The notes under the pieces were generated by a model. That model was not told where the DNA came from. It saw only the letters and a program-made list of their open reading frames with translations, and did not search any database. A DNA stretch of 64,000 bases, taken from contig NZ_OU015584.1 of the NCBI RefSeq assembly GCF_907165195.1, positions 806,001-870,000 on the forward strand, given 5' to 3'. Position numbers and translations under genes: made by a program. Below are positions 7,028 to 64,000 of this stretch, in pieces. Within the stretch, counting starts at the first letter, position 1, and the number at the start of each line of letters is the position of its first letter. Origin of the DNA: Parvicella tangerina (GTDB taxonomy: Bacteria; Bacteroidota; Bacteroidia; Flavobacteriales_D; Parvicellaceae).

Positions 7028-7497
7028 GATGCTATAATTTCTTTGAGGACGTCCTGGATCAAGTCTGATTCGTAGCCCTTTCCGTAAAGGTAAGACATTA
7101 CTTTTTGCTTTTTCTTATAGGAGTTGGTTTCTTTTGTTGTTTTCCATTTATAACTCGCAAGATCTTTTAACGTTTCATAATATTCATCTTCGCTGATTTC
7201 TTTAAACCCTAGTTCGATGCATTTATCCGTTAGCCCTTTTTGTTTTAGGTGGTGTTTGATCTTTCTTCGTCCCCATTTTTTTATTCTTATTTTTCCACTT
7301 ACATACGCTTGCGCAAAGCGTTCTTCGTTAAGGTAATCTCCTTGAATAAGTTGAAGAAGAACATAGTTTAGTTCATCCTCATTGAGTTTAAACGATCTAA
7401 GCTTTTTGATTACCTCTTGCTGACATCGCTCTTGATACGCACAATAACTTCTGGCCTTTTCCAGCGCTTCAATATGGGTGATGATCTTATTGCTCAA
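7024..7497 (-). CDS. recX: Regulatory protein RecX
   Basis: This 157-residue protein is made of RecX-type three-helix repeats. The recognisable blocks are ALEKARSYCAYQERCQQEVIKKL, LIQGDYLNEERFAQAYVSGKIRIKKWGRRKIKHHLKQKGL, and a third repeat with KKQKVMSYLYGKGYESDLIQDVL. RecX binds RecA filaments and limits recombination and the SOS response. The ORF overlaps the AsmA-like gene upstream by 11 bases and the outer-membrane protein gene downstream by four, so it has no promoter of its own. recA is not in the window. Confidence 0.92.
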   Translation of the reverse strand: MSNKIITHIEALEKARSYCAYQERCQQEVIKKLRSFKLNEDELNYVLLQLIQGDYLNEERFAQAYVSGKIRIKKWGRRKIKHHLKQKGLTDKCIELGFKEISEDEYYETLKDLASYKWKTTKETNSYKKKQKVMSYLYGKGYESDLIQDVLKEIIAS

Positions 7498-10204
7498 TTT
7501 CGTATTCTACTTTTGGCTCTTTTTCTTCTGGTTGAATACCGAGTTTTTGAAAAAGTTTGTTCATCCCTTTGTCCTTTTCTTTCTTCTTTTTCTTTTTAGT
7601 GTTTTCAGATTCTGTTTTTTCTTCATTCGAATCGTCATCTTCTTGATCAAACTCTTCCCATTCGATGTCAAAGGTAGGAGAAGGCTTTTCAGGTTCGTTA
7701 TAGGCTTTTACAGAGGTGTCTTGCTTAAAGATCCCAACTTCAGACTTGAGTATTGATTTAATGTTCTTCTTTTCTTCCTGAATGTTCTTCTTGATCTCTT
7801 CGTGTTTCTCTTCAGAATCTAATTCGTAAATCGGGTCGTCTAAATGGCCATACATGTGCAAGAACAATTTAGCACCAAGTTCATCGTCTACCAAAGGTCC
7901 GAATTCTTCTTGTTTTTTGTTGGAATACAAGATTTTTCTTAGTCTAAAATTGAAATGATAGTCAATAGAATCGTTAAAACCATGAATACCACTTAAGTTA
8001 AGATCGAGTACATTAGTTTCCAGGGTCATTTTTGGAATGTATATTTTACTGTCTTTGATCGTGATGGTGTTGTGTAGGTCAGAGAACTTAACGCTTTTCA
8101 ATTTTTTCTGAAGTTTTTCAGTGTCCACAACTACCTTAACCAACTTATTTTCATTAAAATAGTCACCGATTTCTAGCAGTGAGGGCTGATTGATCAACTG
8201 ACCTTTTTTGACATGCAGTTCGCATTCTGCCACGAGTGTTTTTTCATCGATGCTAAAGTCATTATTGACCATAACAGCCATATCAAGTTGAACATTTCCT
8301 TTTCCTTTGATGTGCTCGTTAGTCAAATATTGCTGCCCAAAGTTGTCCATCTCCAGAAAGAAGTTTTCGATATCAATGTCGGTGGCAACGAGATTAGTCG
8401 TCCAGACAAATGATAAGTTGGGGTTTTGGGCAAAGGCAACATCGCACTTATAGACGCCATCGTTTGCCAGAAACGATACATTCTTGGTGCTCAGCTTTTG
8501 ATCATAGAGCGTTACAATTCCATTTACTTTGGTAGCATCAAACTTTCCGTAATACAGGTTGTTGATTTGAGACTTCAAGTTAAGGTGTATGTTATCTGGG
8601 AATACAAATGGTTCAGGCTCCTGTTGAGTAAAAATTTGATCGCCTGAGGCTTCTGTTGCTTTTAGAATATTATCCAGTGTTAATTTTTCTGTTCGTAGGT
8701 CAGCTTCTATGGTTAAGATTTCCTGATCGCTTAGGATGTACGGAATCAGATTTTTGATTGCGCCATCTAAACGGAAGTCACTATCTTCAATGAACCCATG
8801 AAAATCGGAGATTACGGCATCATTTTGATTAAGAACAAGGTCCCCAAAAATCTGCGAGTACGATAGGGCAGAGCTGGGTAATTTCAGACTGGCATTTTTA
8901 AACGTAAACTCTCCTTTTGATTTTAAGATTTGAAAGTCATCGGGTTTACTTTGTCCAATGAAGTGTAGATCAAAATCTGCTTGACCATTCATCTGCTCAA
9001 TATGCTCGCTCTGTAGAAAATCCTTTAACTGTTTCAGGTTAACCGATCCAAAGGAACTTACAATGACTTTCGGGTTATCTAGATTCTCTATTTTTACCTG
9101 TCCGTTGATCTGCCCCACATCAATTTTACCTTTAATATCATCCAGGTAGATCATAGAAGTCCCCAAGGTGTCAGAATCAAAGAACCCATCAAAAGAGAGG
9201 TCGGAGATACTCGTTTTGGTGTTGAGCTCGGTTAGACTGCCTCCCTGTAAGTAAAAATTTGCGGATGTTCTGGGAGTCTCTTGTTCGTTAATCATGCCTT
9301 TTACCTTAGCTTCAAATACAACTAATCCTTTTGCTTTGTATTTGTCCAGCGTAGCCATGTACTCTTTGGGCAAAATGGTAATCGCTGAGGCAAGATCAAT
9401 GTTTTTTCCTTTTACATCCAAATTCACGCTGCTGCTATCAGCCTTATCGATATAGCTACCGGTAACGTCAAAAAGAAGCTCCTCGATATTTACATTTCCT
9501 TTTTGGATGAGGTATTTATTTTTTTTGCGATCAATAAGCATAGCCAGATCCAATGTGGCATCTTTATCTTTGATGAAGGTTACTCCGCCAGATCGGATTT
9601 TCTTTGCTTTTAGTTTTGCTTTTACTTTTAAGTCATAAACCGTTTCTTTAAAATCACCAGAGAAAGTTAGGTCAGGGGCATACCCGATATAGCTTTGGTT
9701 CGTCAGTGAATCTATATATGCAATTTGGATGTCTTTGCCTCTTACTTCTTTCAGTGCGAACGAAAACTTAGTATCTTGAGTAGCGGTGGTATCTTCTTTA
9801 AAGATATCAAAGTTACTTTCACCTTCTTTATTGACCTTTAAGTTGAAGATTGCCCCTTCCAGGGATACGGTTTGCACCTTGTAGTTTCCGGCCATCATAT
9901 CCCAAAAATCAAAGGATAAGTAGATGTGTTTGGCGTACATCATCGTGTCTTGCTCATTCTCACTGAGGTAGTCAGGAATCAAGACATCATTAAACCGTAA
10001 AGAGGCTTTTGGGAACTGATCCCAGATGGTCAACTCGATATCAGGAGCTTTTACTTTTACTTTGAGGTTCTTGTTGAGTTCGTCAATTGCATATTGTTTG
10101 ACCTCGTCTTCGTAGATATACACCACAGTAAAGAAGAAGGCAACGATGAGGACAATCAAAATCCCCAGTCCAGCTAATATTCTTTTGGTCCATTTAAGCC
10201 ACAT
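7487..10204 (-). CDS. AsmA-like envelope protein
   Basis: The 905-residue protein has one N-terminal membrane anchor (about residues 8-30) and the AsmA N-terminal signature in the following 100 residues: conversion of NKNLKVKVKAPDIELTIWDQFPKASLRFNDVLI. It then runs through a long series of beta-strands of the AsmA/DUF748 type, consistent with the bridge-like lipid-transport fold proposed for this family. The C-terminal 90 residues are low-complexity and very rich in Lys, Glu and Asp, including a KKKKKKEKDKG stretch; this tail is unlike the rest. It is the first gene of the operon through recX, the outer-membrane protein, tag and the SRPBCC lipoprotein. Confidence 0.85.
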   Translation of the reverse strand: MWLKWTKRILAGLGILIVLIVAFFFTVVYIYEDEVKQYAIDELNKNLKVKVKAPDIELTIWDQFPKASLRFNDVLIPDYLSENEQDTMMYAKHIYLSFDFWDMMAGNYKVQTVSLEGAIFNLKVNKEGESNFDIFKEDTTATQDTKFSFALKEVRGKDIQIAYIDSLTNQSYIGYAPDLTFSGDFKETVYDLKVKAKLKAKKIRSGGVTFIKDKDATLDLAMLIDRKKNKYLIQKGNVNIEELLFDVTGSYIDKADSSSVNLDVKGKNIDLASAITILPKEYMATLDKYKAKGLVVFEAKVKGMINEQETPRTSANFYLQGGSLTELNTKTSISDLSFDGFFDSDTLGTSMIYLDDIKGKIDVGQINGQVKIENLDNPKVIVSSFGSVNLKQLKDFLQSEHIEQMNGQADFDLHFIGQSKPDDFQILKSKGEFTFKNASLKLPSSALSYSQIFGDLVLNQNDAVISDFHGFIEDSDFRLDGAIKNLIPYILSDQEILTIEADLRTEKLTLDNILKATEASGDQIFTQQEPEPFVFPDNIHLNLKSQINNLYYGKFDATKVNGIVTLYDQKLSTKNVSFLANDGVYKCDVAFAQNPNLSFVWTTNLVATDIDIENFFLEMDNFGQQYLTNEHIKGKGNVQLDMAVMVNNDFSIDEKTLVAECELHVKKGQLINQPSLLEIGDYFNENKLVKVVVDTEKLQKKLKSVKFSDLHNTITIKDSKIYIPKMTLETNVLDLNLSGIHGFNDSIDYHFNFRLRKILYSNKKQEEFGPLVDDELGAKLFLHMYGHLDDPIYELDSEEKHEEIKKNIQEEKKNIKSILKSEVGIFKQDTSVKAYNEPEKPSPTFDIEWEEFDQEDDDSNEEKTESENTKKKKKKEKDKGMNKLFQKLGIQPEEKEPKVEYEIEQ

Positions 10205-10434
10205 ACGTTTATTCTACGAGTTTGAAAGACAGTATAATGCAGCGTAAAATTAGTGGTTATAGGCAATGACTTTTTAAGGGATTACTTTACTTATTAACCG
10301 TTCAATCTTTATTTAGTTACAAAAAAAAAGTGCTTACCGCTAATTTTTTGTCATAAACTTTTATCCCTAAGTTTGTAAATATGTGAAGCGGAAATTACGA
10401 GTAATCAGTCTTTCGTTAAAAGCAACTAATTATC
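10205..10434. other. Intergenic region between the divergent AsmA operon and the duplicated T9SS genes
   Basis: The left part (10205-10345) is AT-rich and holds nothing I can name. The right part carries the promoter and leader shared with the second copy of the downstream gene. An in-frame stop at 10417-10419 precludes any upstream ATG for the gene starting at 10435. Confidence 0.5.
10348..10375 (+). promoter_or_regulatory. Promoter of the first duplicated T9SS gene
   Basis: TTG at 10348-10350, 17 bases, then TAAGTTTG at 10368-10375. The -7 box and about 60 bases of leader are copied in front of the second gene, but the -33 TTG is not, because the duplication starts near 10353. Confidence 0.55.
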
Positions 10435-12311
10435 TTGCGAAACCTTTTAGTCATATTGTTTCTTTTGTTTGTCGTGCAGTTGAATTTTGCTCAGCTCATC
10501 TTTGAGCAAGACGTTGTAAAAAATGGAGGGATTACTGGTGCCGGTTTTTCAGGAGGGTTAGGGTATGGTTCTGGCGAATTTGATATCTTCATTGAACCAG
10601 GAGCTACTATTAAGAAAGCCTATTTATTTTGCTATCGTGTTGGTTATCCTTATGAGAATGAATATGTACTGAACAATGATACGATTGTTTTTGATACCAC
10701 TAACCTGATTTCTTCTTTTGGACATTTAAATGAATACTTTGAGCCTATTAACTTGTATTATTGCGATTATACCAGTGATCTGGACCCGGGAATAACTCAT
10801 TATGATATAGAGCTGCCGGTTAAGACAGGTGATCCCATTAATTGGGGGTATTGTACCATTTATATGGTAGTCGTTTATGAATCTCCTTCCTTGTCAGGAG
10901 CTCTGAGTTATGAAATGGTTTTTAATGATCAGGACTGTTATGGTTTTGAAGCCTATTCATCGGTTCAATTGAATAAAGTAGATTATAATTATCCGGTCGG
11001 CTTTGCTTTGTATACAGATCGCTATGGAGGAGCGTTAACTTATTATTCTTATCTATTAACCATAAACGGAAATCAATTGGGCTACGCAGGAGGCGATGAT
11101 CAGGTAAATTCAGCTTATGGAGCAGCTGGTGTCAAAGGAAATTTTTATTACCAAAACCAAACGTTGTATGGACTGGATGACGATACCCCGGATGCCTTTG
11201 TAGACAGTACAGATGGTTTGGCAGATATTTCAAGCTATATTGATCAGGTTACCAATAGTTTTGATTTTTCGCTGAGGCATGAAGACTACCCGAACAACAT
11301 TCACATTAGTACAGGAGTAAGCTTGGGGTATTTTGTGTCTTACACCACTACTTGTGATACATTCACCGTAGATGTGCCCGCTGAGTATTTGGCTTGTAAA
11401 GGGGATAGCATCCAACTGACTGTTGCAGGAGGTTCACAATATGAATGGTTACCTCAAAAAGATCTGTCCTGTTATACGTGCCCTCAACCTTACTTTAGTG
11501 GAGATACCAGCCAGGTTTACAGGGTCAGGGTTTGGAATAACGATAGTTGTAGTAAAGTGCTTCCGGTGAGTATTCGGGTGGTGGATAAGCCTGAACCTCC
11601 TGTTTTGTCAGTCAGTCCAACACGGTGTAGTGACAGCAGTGGGATCATTGAAGTTGATGTTGTAGAAAACACGCATCAATACCTGGTCAATAACGGTACT
11701 GTCCAAAGTTCTAATGTATTTGATAGTTTGTCATTTGGTTCTTATTTGGTCACTACGGTCGATACCAACAATTGTACTGCCAGCACAGCAGTTTTTGTGG
11801 ATCAAACCTTTCCAGTAGCCGCGTTTCAGGCAACGCCCCAGGAAGGAGATGTTCCACTGGATGTGCAGTTTTATAACCAAAGTTTATACGGCTACGACTA
11901 TTTGTGGTATATCGATGATGATACATTAACCACTACCAGTCCTCAGGTAACATTTGATGAAGAAGGAACCTATGAAGTTACCTTAATTACCTATGATCAA
12001 TATCCTCAATGCGCTGATACTGCCTCTCTATATGTGCATGCTGAATATCCCTTGGTCGTCTTTGCGCCTTCGTTACATACAGATCGACAAGCACCTTATC
12101 AAATTTACACCACAGGAGTAGATGCAATGACGTATGAGCTTTATAATGAAATCGGACAGTTGGTGATTTATGAAGAGCTTACTCCATCAACAGGACATAC
12201 TGAACTATGGCAACCGTATGAACTGGCTAAGGGTGTTTATTTTTATCGGATAGTGGTCACCTACGACCAATCAAAAGAGAAAGTGTTTGCAGGGAAGGTG
12301 GTGAGACAGTG
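10353..12311 (+). repeat. Tandem duplication, unit 1 (about 1.96 kb)
   Basis: Direct-repeat unit that includes the -7 box, leader and whole coding region of a surface protein. Unit 2 follows immediately. The leaders differ by a 7-base length change, and long blocks of the coding region are identical or nearly so, including third codon positions. Confidence 0.9.
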
Positions 12312-12312
12312 A
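10435..12312 (+). CDS. T9SS-secreted surface protein with PKD domain, copy 1
   Basis: The 625-residue protein starts at TTG 10435; no ATG is available because an in-frame TAA lies at 10417. A signal peptide (residues 1-19, ending FAQ) is followed by a 300-residue beta-rich region without a name, in which DVVKNGGITGAGFSGGLGYG opens the mature protein. A Cys-containing region (LACKGDSIQL, LSCYTCPQP) comes next. A PKD-like domain lies near residues 460-535 (GDVPLDVQFYNQSL ... FDEEGTYEVTLITYD). The type A T9SS sorting domain is at the end (YELYNEIGQLVIYEELT, LAKGVYFYRIV, KVVRQ). It would be exported by the Sec system and then carried across the outer membrane by T9SS. A 625-residue paralogue follows directly. 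Confidence 0.88.
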   Translation: MRNLLVILFLLFVVQLNFAQLIFEQDVVKNGGITGAGFSGGLGYGSGEFDIFIEPGATIKKAYLFCYRVGYPYENEYVLNNDTIVFDTTNLISSFGHLNEYFEPINLYYCDYTSDLDPGITHYDIELPVKTGDPINWGYCTIYMVVVYESPSLSGALSYEMVFNDQDCYGFEAYSSVQLNKVDYNYPVGFALYTDRYGGALTYYSYLLTINGNQLGYAGGDDQVNSAYGAAGVKGNFYYQNQTLYGLDDDTPDAFVDSTDGLADISSYIDQVTNSFDFSLRHEDYPNNIHISTGVSLGYFVSYTTTCDTFTVDVPAEYLACKGDSIQLTVAGGSQYEWLPQKDLSCYTCPQPYFSGDTSQVYRVRVWNNDSCSKVLPVSIRVVDKPEPPVLSVSPTRCSDSSGIIEVDVVENTHQYLVNNGTVQSSNVFDSLSFGSYLVTTVDTNNCTASTAVFVDQTFPVAAFQATPQEGDVPLDVQFYNQSLYGYDYLWYIDDDTLTTTSPQVTFDEEGTYEVTLITYDQYPQCADTASLYVHAEYPLVVFAPSLHTDRQAPYQIYTTGVDAMTYELYNEIGQLVIYEELTPSTGHTELWQPYELAKGVYFYRIVVTYDQSKEKVFAGKVVRQ

Positions 12313-12325
12313 TAAATTTTATCCC

Positions 12326-12333
12326 TAAGTTTG
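12326..12333 (+). promoter_or_regulatory. Copied -7 box of the second duplicated T9SS gene
   Basis: TAAGTTTG, identical to the box before copy 1. The position of the -33 element is occupied here by the end of copy 1, and no TTG is present, so this promoter may be weaker or the gene may be read through from copy 1. Confidence 0.4.
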
Positions 12334-12399
12334 TAAATATGTGAAGCGGAAATTACGAGTAATCAGTTTTCCTTTTCCGTTAAATGCAACTAAATTATC

Positions 12400-14277
12400 T
12401 TGCGAAACCTTTTAGTCATATCGTTTCTTTTGTTTGTTGTGCAGTTGAGTTTTGCTCAGGTCATCTTTGAGCAAGATGTTGTGAAAAACGGTGGGATTAC
12501 TGGTGCTGGTTTTTCAGGCGGATTAGGGTATGGTTCTGGCGCATTTGATATCTTTATTGAGCCTGGAGCTATAGTCAAGAAAGCCTACTTGTTTTGCTAT
12601 CGTGTTGGGTATCCTTATGAGAATGAATATGTACTGAACAATGATACGATTGTTTTTGATACCACTAACCTGATTTCTTCTTTTGGACATTTAAATGAAT
12701 ACTTTGAGCCTATTAACTTGTATTATTGCGATTATACCAGTGATCTGGACCCGGGAATAACTCATTATGATATAGAGCTGCCGGTTAAGACAGGTGATCC
12801 CATTAATTGGGGGTATTGTACCATTTATATGGTAGTCGTTTATGAATCTCCTTCCTTGTCAGGAGCTCTGAGTTATGAAATGGTTTTTAATGATCAGGAC
12901 TGTTATGGTTTTGAAGCCTATTCATCGGTTCAATTGAATAAAGTAGATTATAATTATCCGGTCGGCTTTGCTTTGTATACAGATCGATATTCTGGTTCTT
13001 TGACCGATTTTGTCTATGATTTGACCATTGCTTCGAACTATATAGGATCAGTTGGAGGCAATGATCAGGTAAATTCAGCTTATGGAGCAGCTGGTGTAAA
13101 AGGGCATTTTTATTATCAAAATCAAACGTTGTATGGACTGGATGATGATACCCCAGATGCTTTTGTAGACAGTACGGATGGTTTGGCAGATATTTCAGGC
13201 TATATTGATCAGGTTACCAATAGTTTTGATTTTTCGCTGAGGCATGAAGACTACCCGAACAACATTCACATTAGTACAGGAGTAAGCTTGGGGTATTTTG
13301 TGTCTTACACCACTACTTGTGATACATTTACCGTAGATGTGCCTGCTGAGTATTTGGCTTGTAAAGGGGATAGCATTCAACTGACTGCTGCAGGAGGTTC
13401 ACAATATGAATGGTTACCTCAAAAAGATCTGTCCTGTTATACGTGTCCTCAACCTTACTTTAGTGGAGATACCAGCCAGGTTTACAGGGTCAGGGTTTGG
13501 AATAACGATAGTTGTAGTAAAGTGCTTCCTGTGAGTATTCGGGTAGTGGATAAGCCTGAACCTCCTGTTGTATCAGTCAGTCCAACCCGGTGTAGTGACA
13601 GCAGTGGGATCATTGAAGTTGATGTTGTAGAAAACACCCATCAGTACCTGATCAATAATGGATCAGCTCAGAGTTCTAATGTATTTGATAGTTTGTCATT
13701 TGGTTCTTATTTGGTCACTACGGTCGATACCAACAACTGTACTGCCAGCACAGATGTTTTTGTGGATCAAACCTTTCCAGTAGCCGCGTTTCAGGCAACG
13801 CCCCAGGAAGGAGATGTTCCACTGGATGTGCAGTTTTATAACCAAAGTTTATACGGCTACGACTATTTGTGGTATATCGATGATGATACATTAACCACTA
13901 CCAGTCCTCAGGTAACATTTGATGAAGAAGGAACCTATGAAGTTACCTTAATTACCTATGATCAATATCCTCAATGCGCTGATACTGCCTCTCTATATGT
14001 GCATGCTGAATATCCCTTGGTCGTCTTTGCGCCTTCGTTACATACAGATCGACAAGCACCTTATCAAATTTACACCACAGGAGTAGATGCAATGACGTAT
14101 GAGCTTTATAATGAAATCGGACAGTTGGTGATTTATGAAGAGCTTACTCCATCAACAGGACATACTGAACTATGGCAACCGTATGAACTGGCTAAGGGTG
14201 TTTATTTTTATCGGATAGTGGTCACCTACGACCAATCAAAAGAGAAAGTGTTTGCAGGTAAGGTGGTGAGACAGTGA
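12400..14277 (+). CDS. T9SS-secreted surface protein with PKD domain, copy 2
   Basis: Paralogue of the preceding gene with the same length (625 residues), the same TTG start, signal peptide, PKD domain and type A sorting domain. The two proteins differ mainly in three places: the signal peptide and first mature residues, a block around residues 197-218 (copy 1 has YGGALTYYSYLLTINGNQLG, copy 2 has YSGSLTDFVYDLTIASNYIG), and a short stretch near residues 417-425. Residues about 70-196 and 440-625 are essentially identical. It ends one base before the stop codon of the convergent purQ. Confidence 0.88.
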   Translation: MRNLLVISFLLFVVQLSFAQVIFEQDVVKNGGITGAGFSGGLGYGSGAFDIFIEPGAIVKKAYLFCYRVGYPYENEYVLNNDTIVFDTTNLISSFGHLNEYFEPINLYYCDYTSDLDPGITHYDIELPVKTGDPINWGYCTIYMVVVYESPSLSGALSYEMVFNDQDCYGFEAYSSVQLNKVDYNYPVGFALYTDRYSGSLTDFVYDLTIASNYIGSVGGNDQVNSAYGAAGVKGHFYYQNQTLYGLDDDTPDAFVDSTDGLADISGYIDQVTNSFDFSLRHEDYPNNIHISTGVSLGYFVSYTTTCDTFTVDVPAEYLACKGDSIQLTAAGGSQYEWLPQKDLSCYTCPQPYFSGDTSQVYRVRVWNNDSCSKVLPVSIRVVDKPEPPVVSVSPTRCSDSSGIIEVDVVENTHQYLINNGSAQSSNVFDSLSFGSYLVTTVDTNNCTASTDVFVDQTFPVAAFQATPQEGDVPLDVQFYNQSLYGYDYLWYIDDDTLTTTSPQVTFDEEGTYEVTLITYDQYPQCADTASLYVHAEYPLVVFAPSLHTDRQAPYQIYTTGVDAMTYELYNEIGQLVIYEELTPSTGHTELWQPYELAKGVYFYRIVVTYDQSKEKVFAGKVVRQ

Positions 14278-14278
14278 G

Positions 14279-14965
14279 TTAGACCAACTCTAGCCAACTT
14301 TCGAACAACGCTCTTCCATCTTCATTTCCAAGTACGTTGTCTGAAGCTCTTTCTGGGTGCGGCATCATTCCGAAAACATTTTTACCCGTGTTGGTTACAC
14401 CAGCAATATTCTCCAAAGAACCATTCGGGTTAGCTTCAGGAGTTACATTTCCGTTTTCATCACAGTACCTGAATAAAACTTGATCATTGTCATTCAGTGA
14501 TTTGATGGTGTCTGCATCAGCATAAAATCTTCCCTCACCGTGGGCAATTGGAATTTTGTAAGCTTTATTCGGGTCAAGGTGTTTAGAAATGGCCGCTGAA
14601 GAACTTTCCGGTTTGAGGTAAATATTTTTACAAATAAACTTCTGATTATCGTTGTGTAATAGTGCACCAGGAAGTAACCCTGATTCACACAAGACCTGAA
14701 ATCCGTTACAAACACCAAAGACATACCGACCTTTATTGGCATGCTCAATGACTTCCTTCATCACCGGAGAGAAATTAGCAATCGCTCCAGATCTCAGGTA
14801 GTCGCCATAGGAGAAGCCTCCTGGTAAAACCACTGCGTCAACACCTTTCAGGTCATGATCTTTGTGCCATAGATTCTCTACTTCATTTCCTAAGATGTCT
14901 TGTAATACATAGATCATGTCCATGTCACAATTAGAACCGGGGAAAGTAATTACGCCAAATTTCAT
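14279..14965 (-). CDS. purQ: Phosphoribosylformylglycinamidine synthase, glutaminase subunit
   Basis: I start at 14965 ([14 protein letters not shown]), giving 228 residues. A longer frame to 14989 would begin inside the promoter box. The protein is a class I glutamine amidotransferase with the triad Cys86 ([11 protein letters not shown]), His203 and Glu205 ([10 protein letters not shown]). It supplies ammonia to PurL for the conversion of FGAR to FGAM in purine synthesis. The purL and purS genes are not in the window, so the subunits are encoded apart. The gene is convergent with the duplicated T9SS copy 2, with a single base between their stop codons. Confidence 0.93.
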
Positions 14966-14986
14966 ATCGAGTATCTTTTGAAAGCA

Positions 14987-14994
14987 CAAAGTTA
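14987..14994 (-). promoter_or_regulatory. -7 box of purQ
   Basis: Minus-strand TAACTTTG, a full match to TAnnTTTG, about 20 bases before the chosen purQ start. No TTG is visible at the -33 position. It argues that the start is at 14965, not 14989. Confidence 0.5.
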
Positions 14995-60614: not shown

Positions 60615-63600
60615 CTATCTAATCAATGTCACATGTCCAACTAGCGTCTCCCGTTCTGCTGAGTTAGGTATTTTATATCTAATTTTCCAGATATAAACGT
60701 CTTCTTTAGCAGGTTGTCCGAAATGGCTTCCGTCCCAGAATTCATCCAAGTTTTCTACCTCATAGATCAGTTGTCCCCATCTATTAAAGATCATGAAAGA
60801 AACCTCTTCAGGATGATCACCGCTGTAAACAGGACCAAACGTCTCATTCGTTCCGTTACCGTTTGGTGTGAAAGTGTTCGGTACATAGATGGCGAATTCA
60901 TCCTCTAAAAAGATAGTGTCACAATAGGTGTCCGAACACCCAAGATAGTTTACAGCTGTCAGGCACAACTCATATCCGTTGGGTTCAAAATCATTGAAGT
61001 TAAGTTGTAGATCTTGTGTGCTAAAATCAGAACCTGCTAATGTCCACTGATAGCCACTGGCATCTGTGCTTAAATTCGTTACGTCTACCAAATAGTTGTT
61101 GGTAGTTGGATTTTCAGGAGAATATTCAAAATAAGCCATTGGATAGGGCTCAACACAGATAAGTGAAGGGTAGATAGCACTATTTGAACATCCATTTGCA
61201 TCCGTTACAGTTACGGAGAGTTCAAAACATCCATCATTGCTGAACGTATAGCTATCAGAAGGGTTAGTGCTTATTTCATCACCATCCAAACTCCATAAAT
61301 ATTGATTGTCTGAAGAAGCATTCATATCACTATAGTTCATTACCAGTGGTGTACATCCTAAAGTATCACTCACTTCAATGTCAAGTATAGGAAGGTCATT
61401 AATGGTGAAAGTTATCGTGTCGGCTCCACCGCATTGTGATTGAATCGTGTAATAAATATCAAAAGTTCCTTCGCCTAGAGTAGCAGTGTTTACTAACCCA
61501 GAAGAGTTGCTTACTCCTGACCAAACTCCTCCAGGTATCGATGCTGATAGTTGAATGATGCCATCATTAATGCAAGCATCGCTAATTCCTGAAATCACTG
61601 GGTCTAATTGAGCGGATACTGTAATTTGATGCACAACGGTATCAGGGCATTGACCGGGCATTATGTAGGTAATATCATGCGTTCCTGCTCCCGAAATTAA
61701 AGGGTCGAAAGTTAGTGCTGATCCATCTACACCAGTTCCTTGCCATATTCCACCATTGTTTAAAGGGGTTAGAGGTGTTACTCCATCGTTTTCGCATATC
61801 GAAGAAGCCATACTGAACGAAGCATCCTCAATATCGTGAATAGTGATCTCAACAGTATCGGCATCACCACAGACACCACTGAATGAGTAGATCACCTGTT
61901 CAGCTCCTACACCCGCAGAAACTGGGCTAAACAGTCCTGTTGTTGTATTGGTTATTCCAGCGCCATTTGAAGTCCATGTTCCACCCTGATCTTGAGCTGA
62001 TAAATTAAATGCGGGTTCATTTAGACAATAATCAAAGTCAGTAGTCAAAATTGTTGCGTCTGGGCGATTGTCACTATGATCTACTAATGTGTCAATTGAT
62101 GAGGTGCAGCCACTATTATCCGTCACATTGATTGTGTAGCTTCCTACACAAAGGTCAGCGGTACCATTAGTCCACCCTGGAAAATCTGAACTAAATGAAT
62201 ATGGGGTATTACCTCCAGTGGCCGAGGCAGTGATGGCACCGTCACAAGCAGCATCGCAACTTGTAGAGTCTACTTCCAAACTTAGCATGAGTTCAGTTGG
62301 TGATTCAATGGTAACAAACCCTGTTTGTTGACAGCCATTAATATCTGTGAAAATATAATCATATACACCAGCCGCAAGCAAAGAAAGATTATCTGTTGCC
62401 GCAGCAGTAAATCCATTAGGCCCAGTCCAATCCACTGAATATGAATTTGGACTAGTAATGGTAAGGTTAATTGAACCATTGGCACTTCCAAAACAAGTTA
62501 CAGCTGTGCTGTCTTCAACGATAGTTACATTTGGGGCGATATCAATTACTTCTGCGGAGTCAAGTAAACTGCACCCATTGTTGTCAGTGATATCAACGTA
62601 GTACATCCCCGCAGGTAAATTGTTAAGTCCACTTGTAGTCCCAACTATTGTTGACCCTGAATCGGTCCATTCATAATCATAGTCTGAAAGAATGGTTCCT
62701 CCTGTTACATTAACAGAAACGCTTCCGTCAGCAGCAGAACAATTGCTATTGGTAGAAGAGGTGGTTGATGATAGTTCTGTGGGTTCTGTTACGGTGATAC
62801 TAGCAGAGATATTACAAGCAGCATTAGTAGCATCAGCAACAATTACGTTATAAGTTGTAGCACAAAGGTTGGCTTGAGTGGTGGCAGTCGCATCTGTGGT
62901 AAGGTTGTCCCAAGAATACGTAAATGATCCCGATCCACCACTGGGAGTAACTGTTGCCACCCCATCGCAAGCTCCGTTACATGAAACTGCAACAGGAGCT
63001 ATGGTTGCGGTAATTGGAGCTGGTTCTGTAATGGTCACAGCATCTGTATTCGTACATCCGTTGCCATCTGTAACGGTCACAGTATAAATATTGTCGGCAA
63101 GGCCAGTATGGGAAGCACCGGATCCAAGTCCGTTATCCCAACTGTAGCTCAATGATCCTGTTCCAGTAGCAGAAGCATCAATGGTGCCATCAGTCAAGCC
63201 ATTGCACGTGATATCAGTTCCAGAAGCCGTGACGATAGGAGGAGTGGTGTAAGAAACCACAACGTCAGCAGATGCGATACATGGAGCTGTTCCGACATTG
63301 TAAGTGTATGTTCCAGCAGATGCTGACGCAAGGTCAATTGTTCCTGAAAATCCTCCAGTTGTTCCAGAAGGACCTGACCAAGACCCGGTATTGTCAGGAG
63401 TTCCTCCTAGATAGTCGAACAAGTTAACGCTTCCAGTTAAAGAAGCACAAGTGTCCAGAGTTCCATTCGTTCCAGGGACACTCGTTCCAGTAGAATTCAG
63501 GGTTACTTGAACGGTGTCTTTACAGTCGATAGATGAGGTTACAATAACATTGTAGGTGCCTGCACACAAACTAGTTGCGTTGGCAGTACTTTGTCCGATA

Positions 63601-64000
63601 GAAGCGAACGTGTCGTCATACCATTCGTAAGTATAACCCGGGATAGAACCCGTTGCCGAAGCAGATGCTGTTCCTGTGCACCCACATCCATCTACGCTTG
63701 TTGCTGATGCTACTAAGGGTGGAATAGGCATACACCCATTATTGAATTGAGAAATGTAAGCAGCATTTGCTGGATTATTAGGTGCTCCCGGTGTTTGTTC
63801 TTGTATTCCACAAGCGGGTTGATCAGCGCATCCTACTGTCCAATTTGAAACATCTGTTGGGTCACCATCATTGAAATAATAAACTGTGTTGGTTGCAGAG
63901 GATCCTGAAGTAGCTCCTCCTGAGAAATAAATCAGGTTGTTTGCATTATTGTCGTCCCAGCAAAGCGAAAAAACTTCGCAACCTCCTAAATCCACTAGCC
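60615..64000 (-). CDS. Giant type-B T9SS adhesin with SprB-like repeats, 5' end outside the window
   Basis: The frame is open from 60615 through the right edge (about 1128 codons visible), so the N-terminus is missing; an internal GTG at 63993-63995 is not the start. The first visible part looks like the end of a lamin-tail domain (FNDGDPTDVSNWTVG ... EQTPGAPNNP). Then come several SprB-like repeats with the pattern CNG.DG...ATG...YSWDNG.G.....L..G.YTV.VTD.NGC, followed by Ig- and PKD-like domains. The end is the gliding-motility-associated type B sorting domain (YVPNTFTPNGNGTNETFGPVYSG, MIFNRWGQLIYE, EDVYIWKIRYKIP). It is a surface adhesin. Confidence 0.88.
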   Translation of the reverse strand, partial: LVDLGGCEVFSLCWDDNNANNLIYFSGGATSGSSATNTVYYFNDGDPTDVSNWTVGCADQPACGIQEQTPGAPNNPANAAYISQFNNGCMPIPPLVASATSVDGCGCTGTASASATGSIPGYTYEWYDDTFASIGQSTANATSLCAGTYNVIVTSSIDCKDTVQVTLNSTGTSVPGTNGTLDTCASLTGSVNLFDYLGGTPDNTGSWSGPSGTTGGFSGTIDLASASAGTYTYNVGTAPCIASADVVVSYTTPPIVTASGTDITCNGLTDGTIDASATGTGSLSYSWDNGLGSGASHTGLADNIYTVTVTDGNGCTNTDAVTITEPAPITATIAPVAVSCNGACDGVATVTPSGGSGSFTYSWDNLTTDATATTQANLCATTYNVIVADATNAACNISASITVTEPTELSSTTSSTNSNCSAADGSVSVNVTGGTILSDYDYEWTDSGSTIVGTTSGLNNLPAGMYYVDITDNNGCSLLDSAEVIDIAPNVTIVEDSTAVTCFGSANGSINLTITSPNSYSVDWTGPNGFTAAATDNLSLLAAGVYDYIFTDINGCQQTGFVTIESPTELMLSLEVDSTSCDAACDGAITASATGGNTPYSFSSDFPGWTNGTADLCVGSYTINVTDNSGCTSSIDTLVDHSDNRPDATILTTDFDYCLNEPAFNLSAQDQGGTWTSNGAGITNTTTGLFSPVSAGVGAEQVIYSFSGVCGDADTVEITIHDIEDASFSMASSICENDGVTPLTPLNNGGIWQGTGVDGSALTFDPLISGAGTHDITYIMPGQCPDTVVHQITVSAQLDPVISGISDACINDGIIQLSASIPGGVWSGVSNSSGLVNTATLGEGTFDIYYTIQSQCGGADTITFTINDLPILDIEVSDTLGCTPLVMNYSDMNASSDNQYLWSLDGDEISTNPSDSYTFSNDGCFELSVTVTDANGCSNSAIYPSLICVEPYPMAYFEYSPENPTTNNYLVDVTNLSTDASGYQWTLAGSDFSTQDLQLNFNDFEPNGYELCLTAVNYLGCSDTYCDTIFLEDEFAIYVPNTFTPNGNGTNETFGPVYSGDHPEEVSFMIFNRWGQLIYEVENLDEFWDGSHFGQPAKEDVYIWKIRYKIPNSAERETLVGHVTLIR

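Follow-up and report, generated by a model that had tools for sequence, protein, structure and literature searches.

In Helicobacter pylori, the paralogous surface-protein genes babA/babB and homA/homB have a 3' segment that groups by strain, reflecting concerted evolution by intragenomic gene conversion, and a 5' part that diverges (PMC2795765, PMC3960876). Among Bacteroidota, domain rearrangement and allelic exchange are described for surface virulence factors of Porphyromonas gingivalis, the adhesin domains of Kgp and others (PMC5266723). Type B proteins of the type IX secretion system (T9SS) are proposed to anchor to cognate PorP-like partners (PMC9143113).

The window, a 64,000-nucleotide stretch of the Parvicella tangerina genome, carries two adjacent genes, A1 and A2, that invite comparison with these systems. 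Like bab and hom, they belong to paralogous surface proteins with a concerted 3' part and a divergent 5' part. Bab and Hom are however outer-membrane proteins of the Hop/Hom type, and the comparison there is among strains of a single species, whereas the A family consists of T9SS-type cargo with Ig/PKD-like stalks, its loci being tandem or dispersed and spread over an order, with conversion deduced from sequences. The P. gingivalis factors are also Bacteroidota surface proteins with rearranging or exchanging parts, but their variation lies between strains of one species and concerns different domains. The limited, open-licence literature that was searched yielded, apart from P. gingivalis, no description of gene conversion in T9SS families. 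This kind of evolution is known; that limited search gave no account of the family or of its spread across the order.

We consider it rather probable that A1 and A2 are members of a T9SS-type family in which recombination homogenises stalk and anchor and heads diverge or are exchanged, the A pair representing a further stage of this process. Bacteroidota surface biology would gain a clear, testable multigene family with a uniform anchor half and a varying exposed head, in which the break points between head and stalk are mapped and several genomes stand at different stages. One could then test whether free-living and uncultured Flavobacteriales vary their surface by recombination, like some host-associated bacteria.

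The tandem A pair and its site

The pair and its surroundings comprise the following features (window coordinates).

7487..10204, - strand: left neighbour, AsmA-like (named by reading only)
10348..10434, + strand: leader of copy 1, with TTG at 10348-10350, TAAGTTTG at 10368-10375, then the leader common to copy 2
10435..12312, + strand: A1, 625-aa secreted surface protein with TTG start (from sequence and prediction)
A1 residues 1-19: signal peptide (by reading)
A1 residues 20-306: head
A1 residues ~308-537: Ig/PKD-like stalk
A1 residues ~545-625: C-terminal sorting-like domain
10645..11021, + strand: A1 identical tract, 377 nt (gene nt 211-587, codons 71-195), partner 12610..12986
11022..11095, + strand: A1 divergent block (gene nt 588-661, ~codons 196-221), about half of positions differing from A2, synonymous sites included
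11791..12293, + strand: A1 identical tract, 503 nt (gene nt 1357-1859, codons 453-619), partner 13756..14258
12309..12399, + strand: leader of copy 2, with CAG in place of the -33 TTG, TAAGTTTG at 12326-12333, and a small indel
12400..14277, + strand: A2, second copy, 625 aa, 96% identical to A1
12610..12986, + strand: A2 partner of the 377-nt tract
12987..13060, + strand: A2 counterpart of the divergent block
13756..14258, + strand: A2 partner of the 503-nt tract
14279..14989, - strand: right neighbour, PurQ-like (named by reading only)

A preliminary description had reported two back-to-back 625-codon copies with TTG starts, and both ORFs are present as claimed. No in-frame ATG or GTG lies between the preceding stop and the TTG of either gene, and one relative, M30a, is apparently TTG-started too. 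The common leader with its -7 box was also read correctly, TAAGTTTG being a -7-like box found upstream of both genes, and so was the loss of the -33 TTG in copy 2: at 17 nt upstream of the box, copy 1 has TTG and copy 2 has CAG. Similarity of the first leader to the second begins at about 10350. The repeat unit starts ~85 nt 5' of A1 and 91 nt 5' of A2, right at the A1 stop codon. A genome search detects no further occurrence of this leader. Since no terminator-like site was found between the two copies and their leader is common, the A1 promoter may also serve A2.

The AsmA-like and PurQ-like genes served as synteny markers to recognise the same site in G002, a genome of the same genus. There the AsmA-like gene follows purQ after 181 nt with nothing between them, giving zero copies at the orthologous locus; the A pair was therefore gained here or lost in G002. 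In G003 a different gene precedes the AsmA-like gene. The start of contig C177 of G003 (L066:1-280), before a carbonic-anhydrase-like gene, appears by eye to be an inverted repeat of the contig's own sequence, probably an assembly-end artefact.

Patchwork of differences between A1 and A2

A1 and A2 differ at 92 of 1878 nt. The differences, and the silent changes among codons whose residue is unchanged, are spread unevenly.

Codons 1-70: 22 differences; 14/64 silent changes
Codons 71-195: 0 differences; 0/122 silent changes
Codons 196-221: 36 differences; 8/13 silent changes
Codons 222-452: 33 differences; 21/221 silent changes
Codons 453-625: 1 difference; 1/170 silent changes

Scattering the differences randomly gives identical runs of 503 and 377 nt in 0 of 20,000 draws, and with the divergent block removed such runs occur in 0 of 50,000. 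Chance does not yield such identical runs and patchwork recombination is therefore well supported. The non-uniform divergence put forward in the preliminary description is thus confirmed by the count per segment, from 0 to 36, and by tracts longer than expected by chance. Its two long identical tracts fare differently: the one at about residues 70-196 stands, and the one given as 440-625 was drawn slightly too long, codons 446, 452 and 620 being different. Gene conversion, or an equivalent recombination between the copies, as it had proposed, agrees with identical tracts that are non-random and include silent sites, and with the like mosaicism of a second pair (B, below) and of many related genomes.

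A mis-assembled or collapsed repeat might also create a mosaic, and the perfect identity of the 377-nt and 503-nt tracts is what it would leave. We regard this as highly improbable: the genome is one contig (3.98 Mb, 99.8% complete), the copies carry 92 differences, a distinct junction and distinct flanks, and the pattern recurs in independent genomes. A false duplication of the A pair is unlikely.

The block at codons 196-221 had been interpreted as localised diversification of a surface-exposed loop (residues 197-218), that is, diversifying selection on a binding loop after duplication. The residue is altered in 13 of its 26 codons and, in the predicted model, the block begins with a loop. 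The two elements that complete it are however beta strands, and the silent sites are as diverged as the replacement sites (8/13 silent changes). The family alignment does not identify a hypervariable site in relatives either: about 70% of equally long head windows have higher entropy than 197-218, and codons 71-195, identical within the A pair, vary more across the family than the block does. Family entropy and silent-site change speak against the hypervariable-loop reading, and selection on a loop at this place is accordingly most improbable. Silent sites as diverged as replacement sites indicate that the whole segment differs in ancestry instead of having changed point by point under selection.

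Two histories could give such a block. In the one we favour, conversion tracts of different ages would have covered not only the C-terminal half of the A genes but also the greater part of the head, so that 74 nt of old divergence remain as an island. The A heads are 92% identical, unlike those of other pairs, and the block, at about half identity, is near the usual divergence of heads. The main rival for the block is a recent tandem duplication followed by import of this short segment into one copy from a homologue outside the genome, a diverged relative. The synonymous divergence of the block, at the level seen between genera while the remainder of A1 and A2 is 0-10% diverged, would suit an import, as would the finding that a search of the genome reveals no other donor or source of the A1 or A2 block. 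Import would however leave the 10% diverged 5' segment and the diffuse differences in codons 222-452 to be explained by separate causes, and its donor was not found. Furthermore, both blocks are of equal length and share the motif LT...Y.LTI..N, which the other members in that part of the alignment lack, so that they look like one old A lineage. We hold the import to be unlikely and retain the relic island as explanation. Polarising the A1/A2 differences with M30a, B1, B2, ACEa or ACEc gave inconsistent donors and recipients.

Heads and stalks across the family

A further tandem pair of the family, B1/B2, lies at 3.55 Mb in the genome and shares 45-49% identity with A; beyond these four members, all open over their full length, the genome yields only weak domain matches. 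The family comparison covers 51 members from 24 genomes, a few of them cut by contig ends. The relatives' contigs were found with an alignment query, a single-sequence query giving none. They come from Crocinitomicaceae, Brumimicrobium, Fluviicola, unnamed Flavobacteriales and a few MAGs under other names; no relatives were found in viral contigs and plasmids. Tandem pairs are present in six further genomes (L091, L094, L098, L103, L086, L089).

In most genomes with several copies, some or all pairs combine a head (residues 20-300) of ~40-55% nucleotide identity, and thus often saturated, with a stalk and sorting domain of 85-100%, silent sites included. B1 and B2 have ~48% identity in the head and 86% in the C-terminal half, with the step after residue 344; Fluviicola, Brumimicrobium oceani and several MAGs show this kind of step too. 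Likelihood change points place 21 of 24 clear steps at residues 293-344, a zone where the first Ig-like domain begins and the conserved Cys 307 lies, and the other three at 230-232. Some heads are intermediate (63-71%, e.g. STDa/STDe and G049a/G049d). Within-genome pairs without a step are A vs B, those of ACEb, STDc and STDd, and SRRa/SRRb.

In many within-genome pairs, silent codon change is ~0.5 in heads vs 0.04-0.3 in stalks, the median for stalks between genomes being 0.58. Purifying selection on the protein does not explain such low silent change within genomes. The trees point the same way: with an identical set of 46 rows (22 genomes), 23 changes of genome label are required by the stalk tree (minimum 21) and 31 by the head tree. 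Stalks of Fluviicola, ACE17 and B. oceani group by genome, with the exceptions of B. glaciale among the B. oceani stalks and of the aberrant ACEb. Monophyly of the heads is rejected for these three (p-AU 2e-8 for Fluviicola, 2e-68 for ACE17, 5e-4 for B. oceani), p-values to be taken as guides because the groups were picked after an earlier tree was seen and a simpler model was used. The AU test does not reject monophyly of the B1/B2 heads (p-AU 0.29) and the discordance is not significant for this pair alone. As in bab and hom, 3' segments of one genome thus resemble each other more than those of different genomes, at silent sites too, and the divergent head segment has a discordant tree. Most relatives are MAGs, and misassembly or false homogenisation can affect repeated 3' halves there; the one-contig genome of the window and the B. 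oceani isolate speak against such artefacts as the whole cause of the mosaicism.

We propose that homologous recombination between paralogues of the same genome, presumably RecA-dependent, would repeatedly overwrite the stalk and anchor half, a case of concerted evolution, and that heads would remain divergent or swap as units. Recent duplication of whole genes followed by replacement of the head by recombination gives patterns similar to those of conversion. Tandem pairs are indeed frequent, and Flu2/Flu3 share an upstream region with signal peptide (92% over 361 nt) and a C-terminal half (95%) on both sides of heads of ~50% identity. Identity at dispersed loci however stops at or within ~50 nt of the stop codon, so that 3' flanks were not co-duplicated, and converted and unconverted stretches alternate inside the stalks of ACEa/ACEc, NC319a/NC319b and Broc1/Broc2. 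From these comparisons we infer that conversion is the main process; that stalk likeness stems from duplication with head replacement in place of homogenised old paralogues is a doubtful alternative, and both processes may act.

It is conceivable, although we rate it as a minority view, that heads are swapped as cassettes between conserved flanks (leader and signal peptide on one side, stalk and anchor on the other), forming an order-wide generator of surface diversity in Flavobacteriales partly under an adjacent XRE-type regulator. Active antigenic variation of the pilE/pilS or vlsE kind, with one expressed gene fed by silent cassettes, would account for mosaic copies and for a leader and 3' half held in common while the head varies; as all four members of the genome are open over their full length and no partial cassettes were found, it is very unlikely.

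A small regulator gene of the HTH_3 (XRE-type) class, whose C-terminal tail is conserved, lies directly upstream of about ten family members (e.g. L050:6113-6574, L082:5625-5984), namely B1, M30a, M30b, ACEa, Go205, NC319a, Broc3, Flu2, G010 and G030. In two other loci it comes after the family gene, and it is absent at the A pair.

Fold, sorting and anchoring

Family members are predicted to be built of a signal peptide, a beta-rich head, an Ig/PKD-like stalk and a C-terminal sorting/anchor domain. The full model has a pLDDT of 85, and the head alone, all beta, reaches 91. The head has no convincing structural match (best Foldseek E 1.4e-3, VIA Z 6.9) and no sequence match in the PDB, and DUF3344 matched one head only; with no convincing fold match we claim no ligand class. 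We infer an adhesin or recognition function for the family, whose heads would differ in the ligands they bind or serve to escape recognition.

Modules of the Aureispira grappling hook protein GhpA align with the stalk and sorting half (Foldseek E 6e-14; VIA Z 9.2 over 302 residues, rmsd 9.4), and the C-terminus matches GhpA in sequence profile (E 3e-41). GhpA differs by its 5898 residues, and because Ig-like stalk folds are common, the resemblance in fold says little about kinship. The family also resembles T9SS type B CTD proteins like SprB and PG1035: at E <= 0.01, 25 of 33 scanned members match TIGR04131 (type B) and 26 of 33 match CHU_C. The A pair, unlike type B proteins, gives sub-cut-off matches only, and to type A (TIGR04183, 19.1 and 19.4 bits for A1 and A2 vs a curated cut-off of 23). 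The T9SS label of the preliminary description is therefore supported for the family, with the caveat that the sorting domains of A1 and A2 stay under the curated cut-off. The genome encodes the translocon (SprA, 2406 bits) and 21 PorP-like genes above cut-off; none of the latter adjoins A or B, another difference from type B proteins. Anchoring to a cognate PorP-like protein is a possible reason for the uniform C-terminal half, the stalk presumably being kept uniform to fit one export or anchor partner.

At 60615-63995 (- strand) of the window, a 1126-aa protein has a C-terminus resembling the stalk and tail of the family (31% over 228 residues) and is probably another T9SS cargo.
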